A stretch of DNA of 64,000 nt, taken from Rufibacter roseolus (GTDB lineage: Bacteria > Bacteroidota > Bacteroidia > Cytophagales > Hymenobacteraceae). A program made the position numbers and the translations under genes. Positions 19,689-40,253 of the stretch are shown here, in pieces. Positions within the stretch are counted from its first letter, which is position 1. Each line of letters opens with the position of its first letter. The DNA is taken from assembly GCF_017916365.1 (NCBI RefSeq), contig NZ_JAFMSU010000001.1:310001-374000 (forward strand), read 5' to 3'. A model generated the notes under the pieces. The model did not search any database. It was not told where the DNA came from and was given only the letters and a program-made list of their open reading frames with translations.

Positions 19689-20093
19689 ATGCTCCCAGAT
19701 CTAACCCCCGAATTGACTTTCCAGACCTCGCGCAGCAGCGGCCCCGGCGGACAGAACGTGAACAAAGTTGCCAGCAGGGTAGAGGTATGGTTTTCCATCG
19801 ATAACTCCGCTTTGCTCACACAGGAACAGAAAGACCTGCTCTTAGAGAAACTGGCGCCCCGCCTCAACAAAGAAGGCTTTCTGCATCTAGCCAGCCAGGA
19901 AGACCGCAGCCAATTGGCCAATAAGGATTTGGTGGTGCAGAAACTCTATGAAGTGTTGGAACAGGCCCTGCACCGGCCCAAGCCCCGCAAGAAAACCCGT
20001 CCGTCTAAAGCTGCTGTGCAGAAAAGGCTCCTGGCCAAGCAGAAGCAGGGGCAGAAAAAAGCCAACCGCCGCGGAGGCAGCGCAGAAGACTAA
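19689..20093 (+). CDS. arfB: Alternative ribosome-rescue factor ArfB (YaeJ)
   Basis: ArfB hydrolyses peptidyl-tRNA on ribosomes stalled at the 3' end of truncated mRNA. This 134-residue protein has the catalytic GGQ motif in SSGPGGQNVNKVASRVE at residues 16-32, the short RF-1-like domain, and the basic C-terminal tail (RPKPRKKTRPSKAAVQKRLL) that enters the mRNA channel. The length is normal for the family. The start is an ATG with no strong ribosome-binding site. It is followed by a repeat-rich convergent intergenic region. Confidence 0.93.
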   Translation: MLPDLTPELTFQTSRSSGPGGQNVNKVASRVEVWFSIDNSALLTQEQKDLLLEKLAPRLNKEGFLHLASQEDRSQLANKDLVVQKLYEVLEQALHRPKPRKKTRPSKAAVQKRLLAKQKQGQKKANRRGGSAED

Positions 20094-20129: not shown

Positions 20130-20600
20130 AAAAGATATCTAATCCTTCTCTTCTCTGGTTCAAGTCTATGACTTGGACCCACCATGGCCTGCAGTTTGTA
20201 ACTGCAGTGAGGCGCCAGCCTCAAACACGGATTTCACTTGCGTTGTGCGGAGAGTTAGCGGCAGCGCTCTCCGCACTTCCCGGACAGCCAATCTCCTGAT
20301 TGGCGAATTGGCAGAGGTTCCAGTTGGTAGGATATCCCCGTGGTTAGTGTTCTCACCAACAACCTCTACTACCCTTCAATTCACTAAGTGCAGCTACCTC
20401 TCACTTCCTTCTTGCTTGTTTCCCGCGCTTGTTCCTCCGTTTAAAGGTTTGTCACTTTTCTCCTTGATGAGAAAAGTAACCAAAAGAATCAAGAAGCCTC
20501 CAACTCGCTGACGCTCGGACAGTGAGGCTTCACTTAAGATACCACCTGGCTAAAGCTATCTGTTGCATCGTACACGCAGGCCACTGCCACTTTAATTGCT
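20130..20600 (+). repeat. Dispersed multi-hairpin element, copy 1
   Basis: About 450 bp that recurs, inverted and well conserved, at 38835-39290. In order it contains hairpins built on GGTTCAAGT/ACTTGGACC, GCAGTTTGTAACTGC, GTGCGGAGAG/CTCTCCGCAC (20245-20276), GCCAATCTCCTGATTGGC, and a stem ACTTTTCTC/GAGAAAAGT. It lies between convergent arfB and the DUF481 gene and has no convincing ORF. It could be a structured RNA or the remains of a non-autonomous mobile element. Confidence 0.7.
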
Positions 20601-20725
20601 CATCCGTGCGGCAGACCGTGTCTCGGCCTCACTGTAGGCCTTCGCCCCGGCCCGCCGCAGGTGAGCAACTGTAAAACCTTATTCCCTGCGCAGGCACAAA
20701 GGCATCCTTCATTTTATTGGGAATC

Positions 20726-21532
20726 TTAGAAACTTACCTGAATTCCGTTGGTGAGGCTGTACAGGTAGTTAGGGATGGGCACAATGGGGCGGTTCTCGTA
20801 GGTGTGCGAGAAGTTGGTGGTGAGTTGGAACCGGCTGTTGATTTTCATGATGATGGACACATCGCCGCTGAAGCGGTGTCGCGCCATGCCCGCCGGTCGG
20901 TCATAGCCAACCTGGTAATAATGAATGGTACTCAGCTCCAGAAACGGGTTCAAAGGCAACCGGATACTGGCGTAATTGGAGAGTTTGGGGATGCTCTTGT
21001 TGATGTACCGGTCTTCTTCCAGGTTATGCCAGCGTTCATATTCGTACATGGGGCCGGTGCCCAGGTTGAACCTGATATTGTCTTTCCGGACAACCGCAAA
21101 CCTGATACCGGCGCCGGCTAGCATCCTTAACTCCAGTCCCCGGTTATAGTCATATTGAGCCTGGGCGTAGGTTTCATAAGATAAGCGGTCTTGCCGGTTA
21201 AAGGTCACGCGCCCGTGCACGTAACCGGTCTCTACCTGCGTCTCGCCCTTGAGGCGCACGTAATTGTAAGAACCCAGCAGCAGATACGTATTGCGGTCAG
21301 ACACGTACCCAATGTTGCCGTTGCCGGTAAGCCCCAGGAAATGGTCGGTTTTGCCTTCTTTGCCCACGGCGCGGTTGAACAGGTTGAGGTTAACGCCCAG
21401 CTTGCCGGTGAAATAGTTAGAGGTATCTTTCTCCACCCGGGCTTTTTCTACATTCAGGATTTGGCCCGAGGCCGAGGCAACAAAAAAGAAAAGGAGAAGG
21501 AGAAGACCCGAAAGCCGAGGAAAAGAAAGCAT
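20726..21532 (-). CDS. DUF481 outer-membrane beta-barrel protein
   Basis: This protein resembles DUF481, a family of salt-induced or poorly characterised outer membrane barrels. The frame extends to 21574, but the ATG at 21532 gives 268 residues with a signal peptide (MLSFPRLSGLLLLLFFFVASAS, cut near GQ). The mature part is an array of amphipathic strands (YLLLGSYNYVRLKG, GRVTFNRQDRLSYETYAQAQ, RFNLGTGPMYEYERW) and ends with aromatic F as barrels do (GIQVSF). It is monocistronic, with a repeat element downstream. The ligand is unknown. Confidence 0.82.
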   Translation of the reverse strand: MLSFPRLSGLLLLLFFFVASASGQILNVEKARVEKDTSNYFTGKLGVNLNLFNRAVGKEGKTDHFLGLTGNGNIGYVSDRNTYLLLGSYNYVRLKGETQVETGYVHGRVTFNRQDRLSYETYAQAQYDYNRGLELRMLAGAGIRFAVVRKDNIRFNLGTGPMYEYERWHNLEEDRYINKSIPKLSNYASIRLPLNPFLELSTIHYYQVGYDRPAGMARHRFSGDVSIIMKINSRFQLTTNFSHTYENRPIVPIPNYLYSLTNGIQVSF

Positions 21533-21883
21533 AAGCAAGTAATGGTGACCCGGACTGCATAAGCCCGGAGTCATTTCAACGTAAAAAGAAGCCCTGTTAA
21601 GGTGCTACTCCATGGGTAAATTGTCCTCATCAGGCACGGCTCCTTTCCCGAAGTTATAGATTTTAGCTTAAAACCCAGCTACTTTCCCCTAAAACCAGGG
21701 TTTTGTCGTTTCCTGGCAACTTCGGTCTACGGCTTATTCCAAAGATGATAAACTCAGGCTTCATGAGGTCCAACTTGGTCTTTTACCAGTGATTCTAGCC
21801 GGAAAAGCAACACCCTGTTTTGACGCTGCTTTTCATAAAACAGCTTCAAAATAGGGTGCTCAAATGGTACGCTGGGATGTAGG
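21533..21883. other. 351-bp intergenic region
   Basis: Non-coding sequence between the DUF481 start and the end of the MBL-rhodanese gene. It holds a hairpin (21811-21858) near the latter and otherwise nothing I could identify. Confidence 0.4.
21811..21858 (-). terminator. Hairpin downstream of the MBL-rhodanese gene
   Basis: Arms CACCCTGTTTTGACGC and GCTTCAAAATAGGGTG pair with two mismatches. The tip is TGCTTTTCATAAAACA, the conserved tip of the recurrent hairpin family. It lies 26 bp past the stop. Confidence 0.6.
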
Positions 21884-37276: not shown

Positions 37277-38344
37277 ATGCCTAAATTTAGATCTGGGGTT
37301 CTGTACGGAGACGAGGTGCAGGACTTATTCAAGTACGCCAACGACAATAACTTCGCGCTTCCCGCTGTAAACGTAATTGGTACCAACTCCATCAACGCGG
37401 TGTTGGAAACGGCCAAAGCGGTGAATTCTCCCGTTATCATTCAGTTCTCCCAAGGCGGCGCCCAATTCTATGCCGGCAAAAGCCTGAGCAACGAAGGACA
37501 GGCAGCCTCCATTGCCGGTGCTATCTCCGGTGCCCACCACGTACACCAACTGGCCGAGGCTTACGGAGTAACCGTAGTTCTCCACACTGACCACGCTGCT
37601 AAAAAACTGTTGCCTTGGATTGATGGTCTGCTAGATGCCGGCGAGAAATTCTACGCCCAGCACGGCAAGCCTTTGTTCAGCTCCCACATGCTGGACCTTT
37701 CTGAGGAGCCTCTGGAAGAAAACATTGAAATCTCTGCCAAATACTTTGAGCGCATGTCTAAAATGGGCATGACCATTGAGATTGAATTAGGCGTAACCGG
37801 TGGCGAAGAAGACGGCGTTGACAACTCAGACGTAGACAGCGCGCACTTATATACCCAGCCAGAGCACGTAGCTTATGCTTACGAAGAACTGGGCAAAATC
37901 AGTAACCGTTTCACCGTGGCGGCTGCTTTCGGGAACGTGCACGGCGTGTACAAACCAGGAAACGTAGAGCTTCGCCCCGAGATCCTGAAGAACTCTCAGG
38001 ATTTCATCCAGCAGAAATACGGCACCCAGGCCAACCCAGTGAACTTCGTATTCCACGGCGGTTCCGGCTCTGAGAAAGAGAAAATCACCGAGGCCATTGA
38101 GTACGGCGCCATCAAAATGAACATTGACACTGACATGCAGTGGGCATTCTGGGACGGCATCAAAAACTACTACGAAGGCAAAAGAGACTATCTGCAAGCC
38201 CAGATTGGTAACCCAACCGGCGAAGACAGCCCTAACAAAAAGTACTACGATCCCCGCGTATGGTTACGCGCCGGCGAAGAGACCTTTGTGGCCCGCCTCA
38301 AAGAAGCCTTCCAAGACCTGAACTGCATCAACCGCAACGCATAG
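37277..38344 (+). CDS. fbaA: Class II fructose-bisphosphate aldolase
   Basis: This enzyme interconverts fructose-1,6-bisphosphate with DHAP and glyceraldehyde-3-phosphate in glycolysis and gluconeogenesis, using zinc. The 355-residue protein shows the class IIA pattern: FALPAVNVIGTNSINAVLE at the N-terminus, the zinc-ligand region VVLHTDHAAKKLLPW, IEIELGVTGGEEDGVDNS, AFGNVHGVYKPGNVEL and the phosphate-binding FVFHGGSGSEKEKI and NIDTDMQWAFWDGI. The length is standard. A strong terminator follows at 38400-38435. It is cytoplasmic and nearly certain. Confidence 0.97.
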   Translation: MPKFRSGVLYGDEVQDLFKYANDNNFALPAVNVIGTNSINAVLETAKAVNSPVIIQFSQGGAQFYAGKSLSNEGQAASIAGAISGAHHVHQLAEAYGVTVVLHTDHAAKKLLPWIDGLLDAGEKFYAQHGKPLFSSHMLDLSEEPLEENIEISAKYFERMSKMGMTIEIELGVTGGEEDGVDNSDVDSAHLYTQPEHVAYAYEELGKISNRFTVAAAFGNVHGVYKPGNVELRPEILKNSQDFIQQKYGTQANPVNFVFHGGSGSEKEKITEAIEYGAIKMNIDTDMQWAFWDGIKNYYEGKRDYLQAQIGNPTGEDSPNKKYYDPRVWLRAGEETFVARLKEAFQDLNCINRNA

Positions 38345-38435: not shown

Positions 38436-38834
38436 ACAGGGCTTTGAACGTAGGGAAGCAGTTGAACGGCAATTCTGGAATGCGTCAGGAAGCGGTTTGG
38501 CTACAGTTTTGGTTGTTGGTGATAACACCAACAACGGCTGGCGAGAGTGGTATACGGTAAGGATTGTAGGGGCACCTCTTGTGGGTGCCCTTTCGGTTGC
38601 TAATGGTTGTTTCCAGTAGCTGCCGTTTATTGCGGAGGACCTGCTGGAGACAAGGCATGCCTTGTCTCTACATAATTAGACTAATGTAACAAGGATAGCA
38701 GGTCTAATCTCACCTTCGTCCGCAGGAGGATGCAGGCATTGCAGCGGCTCTAAAACCTAGGCAGGACCATGCAGGTCGGCGGAGGTTGGGCGCGTGCGTA
38801 ACCCAACCTCCGCCGAGCGCAGGCAATGGCTTCT
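38436..38834. repeat. Gene-free hotspot of short perfect palindromes
   Basis: Part of the 1,120-bp gap between fbaA and the TPM gene. It holds four unrelated inverted repeats: GTTGTTGGTG-ATAA-CACCAACAAC (38512-38535), GGGCACC/GGTGCCC (38570-38590), the 22-bp palindrome GAGACAAGGCATGCCTTGTC plus TC (38647-38668), and CGGCGGAGGTTGGG/CCCAACCTCCGCCG (38777-38815). No convincing ORF. It looks like a landing site for small repeat elements. Confidence 0.65.
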
Positions 38835-39290
38835 CAAATGGCAATGGCGTAAGTTCACTATGGAACAAAAGGCTTTTGCCAGGTGGTACCATAATGAAGA
38901 AAAGACTGTTTGAGCGTCAGCGAGTTTCTTTTCTTCTTGATTCTTTTGGTTACTTTTCTCATCAAGGAGAAAAGTGACAAACGCCCGCAGACCGCGGCTG
39001 CAGCCAAGAGGCTTGGAAGGAAGGAAGTGGGTGGTAGCTGTGGTAAGTGGATTGAAGGGGAGTAGAGGTCGTTGGGAACACCAAACACGGTGATATACTT
39101 CCAACTGGAACCTCTGCCAATTCGCCAATCAGGAGATTGGCTGTCCGGGAAGTGCGGAGAGCGCTGCCGCTAAATCTCCGCACAACGCGAGGAATCCGAG
39201 TTAGAGACTAGCGCCTCACTGCAGTTGCAAACTGCAGGCCATGGTAGGTCCAAGTTAAAAACTTGAACCAGAGAAAACGAGATTAGAAAA
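38835..39290 (-). repeat. Dispersed multi-hairpin element, copy 2 (inverted relative to copy 1)
   Basis: The reverse complement of this segment aligns with 20130-20600. Long identical runs include the region from the CTCTCCGCAC stem through GCCAATCTCCTGATTGGC and GGCAGAGGTTCCAGTTGG, and the block containing ACTTTTCTCCTTGATGAGAA. All five hairpins of copy 1 are kept. It lies between convergent fbaA and the TPM gene, the same context as copy 1. The short open frames in it look spurious. Confidence 0.72.
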
Positions 39291-39464: not shown

Positions 39465-40253
39465 CTACCAGCTTGAGCCGGCGCCACCGCCGCCGAAGCT
39501 ACCTCCTCCGAAGCCGCCGAAACCACCGCCTCCTCCACCTCCAAAGCCGCCACCGCCGCCTCCGAAGATGCCGCGTCCGCCGGAGAAGTCACCGAAGATC
39601 ACGGGAGGGAAGAATGGTCCGCCTAGGGTGCGCATGCCGCCGCCCCGACCACCTCGCCCGCCACCGCGGCGACTGATGATGAAGATGAGGATCAGGATAC
39701 CAATGATAATCCAGAGGAAGGGAATACCGCCGCCATCGTCGCCTTGCTGTTGCCGGGGATCTGCTTTATACTCGCCGCTGGCCACGTCAATGATGAAGCT
39801 GGTGCCTTTATCCAGGCCGGCGTAATAGTTGCCTTGCTTGTACTCGGGTTTGATGGTGTACTCGGTGATGCGTTTGGCAATGGCGTCTGGCACCACGCCC
39901 TCCATGCCGTAGCCGGTGGCAATGAATATCTTGCGCTCCTGCACGGCGGTTAAGATGAGAATCCCGTTGTTTTTGCCCTGCTGGCCAATGCCCCATTTCT
40001 CTGCCAATTGGAAGGCATAATCAGAGACATCATAAGGGCCAATGGAGGTGATGTTGACAATGGCAATCTGGGTGGAGGTACTGTCATTGTAGTTGACCAG
40101 CTTCTGTTCCAGGGCCTGCTCTTCCTGTGGGCTCAGTATATCTGCCAGGTCATTGACCAGGCGCGGCGGAGAAGGGCGCGGAGGAAAATCCTGCGCCAGT
40201 ACCGGCCATGCCAACAGCCACAAAATCCCCAGAAGCCAGATTGATTTTCTCAT
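39465..40253 (-). CDS. TPM domain membrane protein with glycine-rich tail
   Basis: TPM (YgcG/Psb32-type) proteins are membrane-anchored with an extracytoplasmic TPM domain; in plants the family is linked to photosystem II repair, and its bacterial role is unclear. This 262-residue protein has a signal peptide (cut near VLAQD), a TPM domain at about 28-165 (VNDLADILSPQEEQALEQKL, TSTQIAIVNI, GKNNGILILTA, IATGYGMEGVVPDA), a transmembrane helix at about 176-193 (PFLWIIIGILILIFIIS) and a Gly-rich tail ending SSW. Its ATG abuts the stop of the preceding TPM gene, forming a LemA-TPM-TPM operon. Confidence 0.92.
   Translation of the reverse strand: MRKSIWLLGILWLLAWPVLAQDFPPRPSPPRLVNDLADILSPQEEQALEQKLVNYNDSTSTQIAIVNITSIGPYDVSDYAFQLAEKWGIGQQGKNNGILILTAVQERKIFIATGYGMEGVVPDAIAKRITEYTIKPEYKQGNYYAGLDKGTSFIIDVASGEYKADPRQQQGDDGGGIPFLWIIIGILILIFIISRRGGGRGGRGGGMRTLGGPFFPPVIFGDFSGGRGIFGGGGGGFGGGGGGGFGGFGGGSFGGGGAGSSW

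Follow-up and report, generated by a model that had tools for sequence, protein, structure and literature searches.

The two inverted segments studied in the window (the whole 64,000-nucleotide stretch of Rufibacter roseolus DNA that was analyzed) are probably both copies of a composite dispersed intergenic DNA repeat, in which REP-type palindromes of the RAYT kind (modules A and mid) stand together with a module, B, whose sequence points to a pseudoknot-triplex fold; we give this reading a probability of about 0.7. The segments are a mosaic of at least three separate repeats, not one unit. One strand of module B can, as far as its sequence indicates, form an H-type pseudoknot in which a third strand lies along its own stem, that is, a pseudoknot-clamped intrastrand triplex, and it may do so either as ssDNA or as RNA.

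Two copies in the window

Comparison by blastn aligned positions 20138-20592 of the window with 38836-39287 on the minus strand at 82% identity (E 4.4e-117; query 39-493), giving a matching span of approximately 455 nt in opposite orientation. Both copies occupied intergenic sites flanked by convergent genes. Copy 1 lay between arfB, encoding ArfB (19689-20093, plus strand), and a DUF481 gene (20726-21574, minus strand), and copy 2 between the genes for a class II fructose-bisphosphate aldolase (37277-38344, plus strand) and a TPM-domain protein (39465-40253, minus strand). The open reading frames across the copies (20173-20511, plus strand; 38757-39128, minus strand) ran through the repeat itself, and neither was a convincing gene. 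A sequence-only reading of the same DNA had described two inverted copies that align over most of their length, encode no protein, and lie between convergent genes, and on all of these points it proved to be right. The same reading counted five conserved hairpins within one element of about 450 bp. The order of the hairpins (A hp1, hp2, and hp3, mid hp1 and hp2, B1, and B2) was indeed the same in both copies, but at least seven hairpins were found, and the single unit did not hold, since mid was present in only six of the A-B copies of the own genome.

Within the own genome (5.5 Mb, 7 contigs), blastn with the segment gave 64 matches. A search of related genomes for copies, which had been proposed as a check, gave matches to the segment in all 16 genomes of the genus set, here the Rufibacter group (Rufibacter is placed in Hymenobacteraceae by NCBI); most were matches to B or A, not to the whole segment.

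Two further observations concern the window sequence. One of the repeat-made reading frames at 38757-39128 (minus strand) and 20173-20511 (plus strand) gives a FVTFLLDEKSNQKNQ-like peptide from B, and such frames are a possible origin of spurious hypothetical proteins. The palindrome TAGAGACAAGGCATGCCTTGTCTC, at about 38660-38690 just past copy 2, recurred after several copies in the own genome.

Separate distributions of modules A, mid, and B

A single autonomous 450-bp element was rejected because A, mid, and B had separate distributions. Module A (20155-20225, plus strand, in copy 1; 39201-39271, minus strand, in copy 2) is 68 nt long with three hairpins, which in copy 1 are formed by 20157-20166/20170-20179, 20189-20196/20200-20207, and 20208-20213/20218-20223. 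Its 5' end was constant over the 41 own-genome copies that were extracted first; 43 were found by profile. The mid module (20243-20306, plus strand; 39123-39185, minus strand) has two hairpins, hp1 at 20245-20254/20267-20276 and hp2 at 20287-20293/20298-20304 in copy 1. Module B, about 110 nt in length, occupies 20447-20555 on the plus strand in copy 1 and 38873-38982 on the minus strand in copy 2. The spacing between A and B ranged from 71 to 234 nt, and the content of the spacer varied. In six own-genome copies, both window copies included, it consisted of mid and a small hairpin; the other spacers among those listed held G/C-rich mirror repeats or different hairpins. In copy 1 a small hairpin of the GTTGGTGTTCTCACCAAC kind lies at 20340-20364 (plus strand), and this kind was seen by eye at other places too.

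In the fetched loci, A was located upstream of B on the same strand in 26 of 26 B copies of the own genome, 9 of 9 in R. hautae (G002), 2 of 2 in Sabulibacter ruber (G009), 1 of 1 in R. psychrotolerans (G005), and 5 of 6 in R. latericius (G004), and A preceded B in none of the 5 copies of R. immobilis (G003) and none of the 11 of R. roseus (G007). The last two species showed that B occurs without A, and the counts per species indicated that A precedes B in only part of the genus. From this pattern we infer that some members of the genus gained A in front of B, rather than that the others lost it.

Other repeats were seen in and around the unit. Mirror repeats such as CTCCCCT-loop-AGGGGAG..AGGGG and CCCCC-loop-GGGGG..GGGGG resemble known intrastrand triplex motifs, and G/C-rich mirror repeats recurred in the same intergenic regions, as in the A-B spacer of locus L045 and in the arfB gaps of genomes G011 and G001. 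At two loci (L059:1523-1965 and L064:1525-1956), opposed A pairs enclosed mirror-ordered palindromes, producing nested palindromes of more than 400 bp.

Modules A and mid as REP-type palindromes beside RAYT genes

Comparison with the flanks of Y1 transposase genes identified A and mid as REP-type palindromes, the class of repeat on which RAYT (TnpA_REP) enzymes act. The own genome contained three Y1_Tnp matches, and Y1_Tnp was present in 15 of the 16 genus genomes. The gene at locus L075 (G000:C3:262460-263023) encodes a REP-associated tyrosine transposase of 187 aa that scored 98.4 bits with NF047646/REP_Tyr_transpos, and the gene at L074 scored 92.4 bits with NF047646 (cut-off 80 for both). 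An inverted pair of mid type flanked the L075 RAYT gene, with 34 nt at 97% and 25 nt at 100% complementarity. With its further copies in the window, mid thus showed the combination by which a REPtron is recognized, namely inverted flanking copies together with copies elsewhere. A compensatory change separated the hp1 stem of mid in the L075 flanks from that in the window (GCGTAGAG/CTCTACGC versus GCGGAGAG/CTCTCCGC; based on the first four rows of alignment A4).

In the case of module A, it was relatives of A, not A itself, that flanked RAYT genes. There were 45 Y1 places in the 16 genus genomes, and 42 of them, in 41 loci, were taken, leaving out L087-L089, which were strong IS200-type matches. 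The RAYT query matched 39 of these 41 loci among the matches listed. When the 41 loci were searched with a covariance model of A (R2), 24 matches were found with E values up to 5; the ten with E <0.001 fell in six loci (L073, L074, L116, L136, L139, and L143), and all ten were within 335 nt of a RAYT frame. These relatives had a similar linker and hp2 and an hp1 loop about ten bases longer, which suggested that A is a loop-shortened relative of the RAYT-side REPs. Inverted words of at least 17 nt between the 400-nt flanks were present, as a raw count, at 21 of 39 RAYT genes.

The catalytic motifs were NHVH, WQ, and YLHNNP in the L074 gene, and SHAH, WQ, and YIHQNP in the L075 gene. Judged from these motifs by eye, the RAYT here appeared most like subclass 2.6/group 5, for which the motif table gives NH[LIV]H, WQ, and YIH[QN]NP (PMC6006769). 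In the part of that paper drawn on here, subclass 2.6 genes are described as mostly from Bacteroidetes and as flanked by atypical structures with copies elsewhere in the genome, and our REP-RAYT findings agree with this description (PMC6006769). The canonical REP tetranucleotide GTAG/GTGG was absent, by eye, at the 5' foot of A and mid.

Hairpins like GGCGCGGAAGTTACTTCCGTGCC flanked the RAYT genes at L117, L120, L126, and L131. A hairpin related to this kind was located in the A-B spacer of L043, so that a further REP family may insert into the unit as well. In two genomes (L075:2290-2350 and L137), mid-type RAYT genes had, on one side, a long (TTG)n run directly next to the REP.

Architecture of module B

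In copy 1, stem S1 of module B (20454-20462/20469-20477) encloses the loop CTTGAT (20463-20468) and is followed by a purine linker (20478-20487) and by S2', ATCAAG (20488-20493). The hairpin loop is complementary to the downstream ATCAAG, with the purine linker in between, and the linker matches the S1 stem in length and in mirror sequence. The second stem (20493-20501/20523-20531, plus strand, in copy 1) carries an apical loop at 20502-20522; it is of the GAAGCCTC/GAGGCTTC type in copy 1 and of the GAAGAAAAGA/TCTTTTCTTC type in copy 2.

The relation between linker and stem was examined in a core set of 124 distinct hairpins that had a CTTGAN loop and 6 bp or more of stem, taken from 135 loci outside the own genome, of which 106 were parsed and 18 were not. 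The linker was one base shorter than the purine side of S1 (S1') in 96 of the 106, two shorter in 9, and equal in 1. For 47 distinct forms, the variance of the length difference was 0.154, compared with a permuted mean of 1.426 and a permuted minimum of 0.665 (0/5000). This length relation was not forced by the scan pattern, in which CTTGAT and ATCAAG were fixed and the free stretches could be 4-14 and 0-3 bases long. Read backwards, S1' was identical with the linker at 225 of 253 positions in the 47 forms, compared with a permuted mean of 215.6 and a maximum of 222 (0/2000, permuted among equal lengths); a third strand in mirror order, the mark of an intrastrand triplex motif, was therefore present. 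Of the loops found without a fixed S2', CTTGAC occurred with GTCAAG in 6 of 7 cases and CTTGAA with TTCAAG in 2 of 2, and a looser test of complementarity between loop and S2' gave a weak result (11/98; permuted mean 5.0, maximum 12). Deviant copies were also found: S1 had changed and the linker had not in three genus copies (L081, L113, and L157), and S1 was broken in L084.

Covariation and folding of the stems

Covariation in the stems had been named by the sequence-only reading as a check on its proposal, and compensatory change was found in both A and B. In alignment A1, which comprised 54 A copies from the own genome and the genus, 97.4% of cells were paired and 47 cells had changed on both sides (shuffled mean 13.7; 0/500); the number of pairs with two-sided change (5) and the number of pair types (14) were not above those of shuffles (74/500 and 410/500). 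In alignment A2, of 42 B copies, 97.7% were paired, two-sided change affected 10 pairs and 87 cells (shuffled 6.0 and 24.9; 0/500), and there were 16 pair types (shuffled 12.3; 6/500), all counts in A1 and A2 being inflated by kinship of the copies. The pair closing the hp1 loop of A was C-G in 39 and T-A in 15 of the 54 aligned copies, in line with the earlier remark that the first stem varies in its loop and closing bases and still pairs. The B1 stem was ACTTTTCTC/GAGAAAAGT or, in three copies, AGGTTGA/TCAACCT, and the B2 stem was CCTC/GAGG, AAAAGA/TCTTTT, or CCCC/GGGG, with loops nearly unchanged in both.

The apical-loop motif of B2 was found within 300 nt downstream in 8 of 100 distinct elements outside the genus, and in none upstream or on the other strand; this motif thus marks a subset only. 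A related apical motif had 28 distinct hits in 918 kb of loci chosen for B, all of them within 260 nt downstream of a B core. In the 11 hits classed as outside the genus (one of which, L284, is in fact R. latericius), the flanking arms paired at 70 of 88 positions (permuted mean 33.6, maximum 55), and two of the 11 (L197 and L326) were unpaired next to the loop in the tested register.

Folding as single-stranded DNA was compared with 200 shuffles for A and mid of copy 1, A of copy 2, B of both copies, and the hairpin B3. The folds of A (z -5.9) and mid (z -4.2) of copy 1 and of A of copy 2 (z -3.9) were each matched by 0/200 shuffles. Those of module B were weaker (z -2.4 and -2.7; 4/200 and 2/200 shuffles as good), so that the B fold computed without the pseudoknot exceeded shuffles only modestly. 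The distal GC-rich hairpin B3, on the 3' side of the composite (20607-20660, plus strand), was not significant when folded alone (z -1.0; 28/200 shuffles as good).

Module B beyond the genus

The B model (R1) detected B in at least 28 of 296 Bacteroidota genomes, the own genome included, and in 18 of 140 genera, under stricter filters and with 12 candidates scored per genome; copy counts per genome from the model scans, in which 12 or 41 candidates were scored, are lower bounds. A pattern scan of genome contigs for B gave at least 108 stretches, mostly from Bacteroidota. Among the matches listed were Pedobacter, Mucilaginibacter, Chitinophaga, Parabacteroides, Dysgonomonas, Chryseobacterium, and other Bacteroidota genera, as well as members of other phyla: Balneolaceae (Balneolota), Orenia (Bacillota), Propionigenium (Fusobacteriota), and a Termititenax MAG. 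Of 113 pattern hits among the matches listed, 103 contained a perfect S1 stem of 6 bp or more. Three of the other ten (L247 from Orenia, L262, and L340) had no stem by eye, and the rest had a mismatch or a shifted loop.

RAYT-like frames were present in 3 of 135 B loci, one of R. hautae and two outside the genus, and none was nearer than 2.5 kb, which indicated that RAYT is not the general carrier of B. A viral contig collection contained neither a match to the B pattern nor a RAYT relative. When the open reading frames between clustered B copies were inspected by eye (L326, L286, L282, L352, and L345), no recurrent mobilizing gene was seen. In some organisms B was arranged in clusters or near-tandem arrays (L286:5246-5678, L352, and L326). 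Searches of an open-access literature collection found neither the composite nor the B core described. We tentatively propose, at somewhat less than even odds, that B is an undescribed phylum-wide structured repeat, a pseudoknot-clamped triplex in which third strand and stem co-evolve almost base by base, accompanied in a subset by the apical-loop hairpin, and that it serves as a recognition site for an ssDNA-processing enzyme or as a discrete RNA.

Gene context and strand of module B

Gene contexts were taken from crude longest-ORF calls. In the own genome, the 24 clusters with B (26 B copies) comprised 15 in tandem, 8 in convergent, and 1 in divergent context. The suggestion that the element targets transcript ends was therefore upheld at most in part, by the 8 convergent clusters and against the other 16. 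Outside the genus, 27 of 81 elements were convergent (background gaps of at least 150 nt, 58/297) and 13 of 81 divergent (background, 68/297); the corresponding numbers for the genus type were 8 and 6 of 31, three elements inside long ORFs being left out of this count. The strand of B relative to tandem genes was the same in 7 and opposite in 8 cases in the own genome, 19 and 22 outside the genus, and 7 and 10 for the genus type. This absence of a strand preference favors a dispersed DNA element over a cis-acting RNA. A terminator or 3'-UTR RNA was not supported, as there was no strand bias.

A structured RNA had been one of the two suggestions of the sequence-only reading. In this explanation, B or the whole unit would be a noncoding RNA or a 3'-UTR element that binds a protein or a ligand through its pseudoknot and loops, and the stems that covary around nearly invariant loops, the apical loop that recurs on unrelated stems in some distant organisms, and a linker length that suits loop 3 of an H-type pseudoknot are all consistent with it. 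However, the gene context gave it no support, the strands in tandem contexts being evenly divided in all three groups, and the many copies stood in varied gene contexts. Searches of Rfam gave no match in the window at gathering scores, and in 16 loci searched at E up to 1 no element reached a gathering score; the sole match there that overlapped an element was a sub-threshold Thr_leader in L312 (26.7 bits, gathering 55, E 0.67). We therefore consider a structured RNA unlikely as the explanation of the unit. The conserved loops and the predicted pseudoknot of B are compatible with a role as RNA or as ssDNA. A Flavo-1 RNA match above its gathering score at L277:7869-7952 was unrelated to the element.

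A preference for one replication strand was also considered and, judged by local GC skew, amounted to a slight tendency at most. Hits on the G-richer strand numbered 47 of 77 outside the genus and 22 of 36 for the genus type (18/32 and 6/10 at absolute skew >0.05), and own-genome copies on that strand numbered 21 of 43 for A and 14 of 25 for B.

Presence, absence, and mode of spread

The DUF481 gene was present in all 16 genus genomes and was adjoined by arfB in 15. The arfB-DUF481 gap measured about 76-163 bp in three of these genomes (G014, G009, and G007); in the remaining twelve it ranged from 253 to 1119 bp. B was present in this gap in 4 of the 15 comparable genomes (own, G002, G004, and G011), with a full A in the own genome, G002, and G004 and a partial A in G011, and a mid-like hp2 was found only in the own genome. 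At the aldolase/TPM site, where the TPM gene was in view in 10 of the 16 genomes, B was present in 4 of the 10 (own, G002, G008, and G009), accompanied by A in the own genome, G002, and G009; in G004 and G006, B was located behind the aldolase gene with TPM outside the view. Both sites thus differ at the species level. Copy number and this presence and absence suggest that the unit is probably mobile, and the other suggestion of the sequence-only reading, a non-autonomous mobile element, fits, A and mid being related to RAYT-flanking hairpins.

If the unit is a composite repeat of RAYT-type REPs and B, A would have been joined to B, the A-B unit would have multiplied, and mid would have been inserted later. 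RAYT enzymes, acting in trans on single-stranded hairpins, would spread A and mid and carry B along. In ssDNA or RNA, B would fold as a pseudoknot-clamped triplex and then form the second stem.

Recombination could also generate such repeats, with hairpins and triplexes as hotspots for slippage, template switching, and gene conversion and with no dedicated enzyme involved. The part of PMC4666352 drawn on here associates triplex motifs with local instability in E. coli, and the nested palindromes at L059 and L064 and the mosaics of unrelated repeats would fit, but the 5' end of A, constant over 41 own-genome copies, and the specific homology to REP-RAYT flanks argue against this explanation and make it rather improbable. 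A classical MITE, with short terminal inverted repeats moved by a DDE transposase, would likewise occur in many intergenic copies without coding capacity, but it is hardly credible here, since the ends are unrelated (A at the 5' side and two types of GC-rich hairpin at the 3' side), no terminal inverted repeat was seen by eye, and the Y1 genes are flanked by relatives of A and mid.

Comparison with known systems

If module B adopts the fold that its co-variation implies, it would represent a naturally occurring repeat in which a pseudoknot locks a triple-stranded stem, with a range from Bacteroidales to Cytophagales that also takes in Propionigenium. Triplex structure in bacterial genomes would then have a testable case based on sequence, in a field that has weighted A/T-rich motifs below G/C-rich ones. 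Module B would also account for a recurrent class of conserved intergenic sequence and for spurious small ORFs in Bacteroidota, and the system would supply REP-RAYT pairs of the little-studied subclass 2.6 for biochemistry.

BIMEs are mosaic clusters of REPs. The composite resembles them in being an intergenic mosaic of palindromic units, and differs from them in that it includes the non-REP module B and recurs as an ordered A-B unit. In H-type pseudoknots, loop 3 lies in the minor groove of stem 1. Module B has the same topology and an A-rich loop 3, whereas the length of its loop 3 tracks stem 1 nearly one for one, and B is known here as a DNA sequence.

Compared with REPtrons of subclass 2.6/group 5, as far as they are described in the part of PMC6006769 drawn on here, the system shares a Y1 gene above the REP_Tyr_transpos cut-off with catalytic motifs near those of the subclass, and inverted hairpin flanks with further genomic copies. 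In contrast to those REPtrons, the REPs here belong to a larger composite that also includes B, and the hp1 loop of A is shortened (PMC6006769).

Intrastrand triplex motifs in bacteria, with more weight given to G/C-rich ones, are described in PMC4666352, which in the part drawn on here also names BIMEs, and lists Flexibacter litoralis as one of the genomes in which A/T triplexes are abundant. Neither "pseudoknot" nor "Bacteroidetes" occurs in its main text, and the ITxF database of that paper may contain the B core unnamed. Module B resembles these motifs (PIT/TMECO and ITxF; PMC4666352, same part) in having a pyrimidine strand, a purine strand, and a second purine strand in mirror order within one strand, and in being dispersed and, here, mostly intergenic. 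It differs from them in being A/T-rich and in having a conserved first loop that is complementary to sequence past the third strand. On these comparisons of sequence, the RAYT-type REPs of the composite are of a known kind, and module B extends the intrastrand-triplex kind by a predicted pseudoknot clamp.
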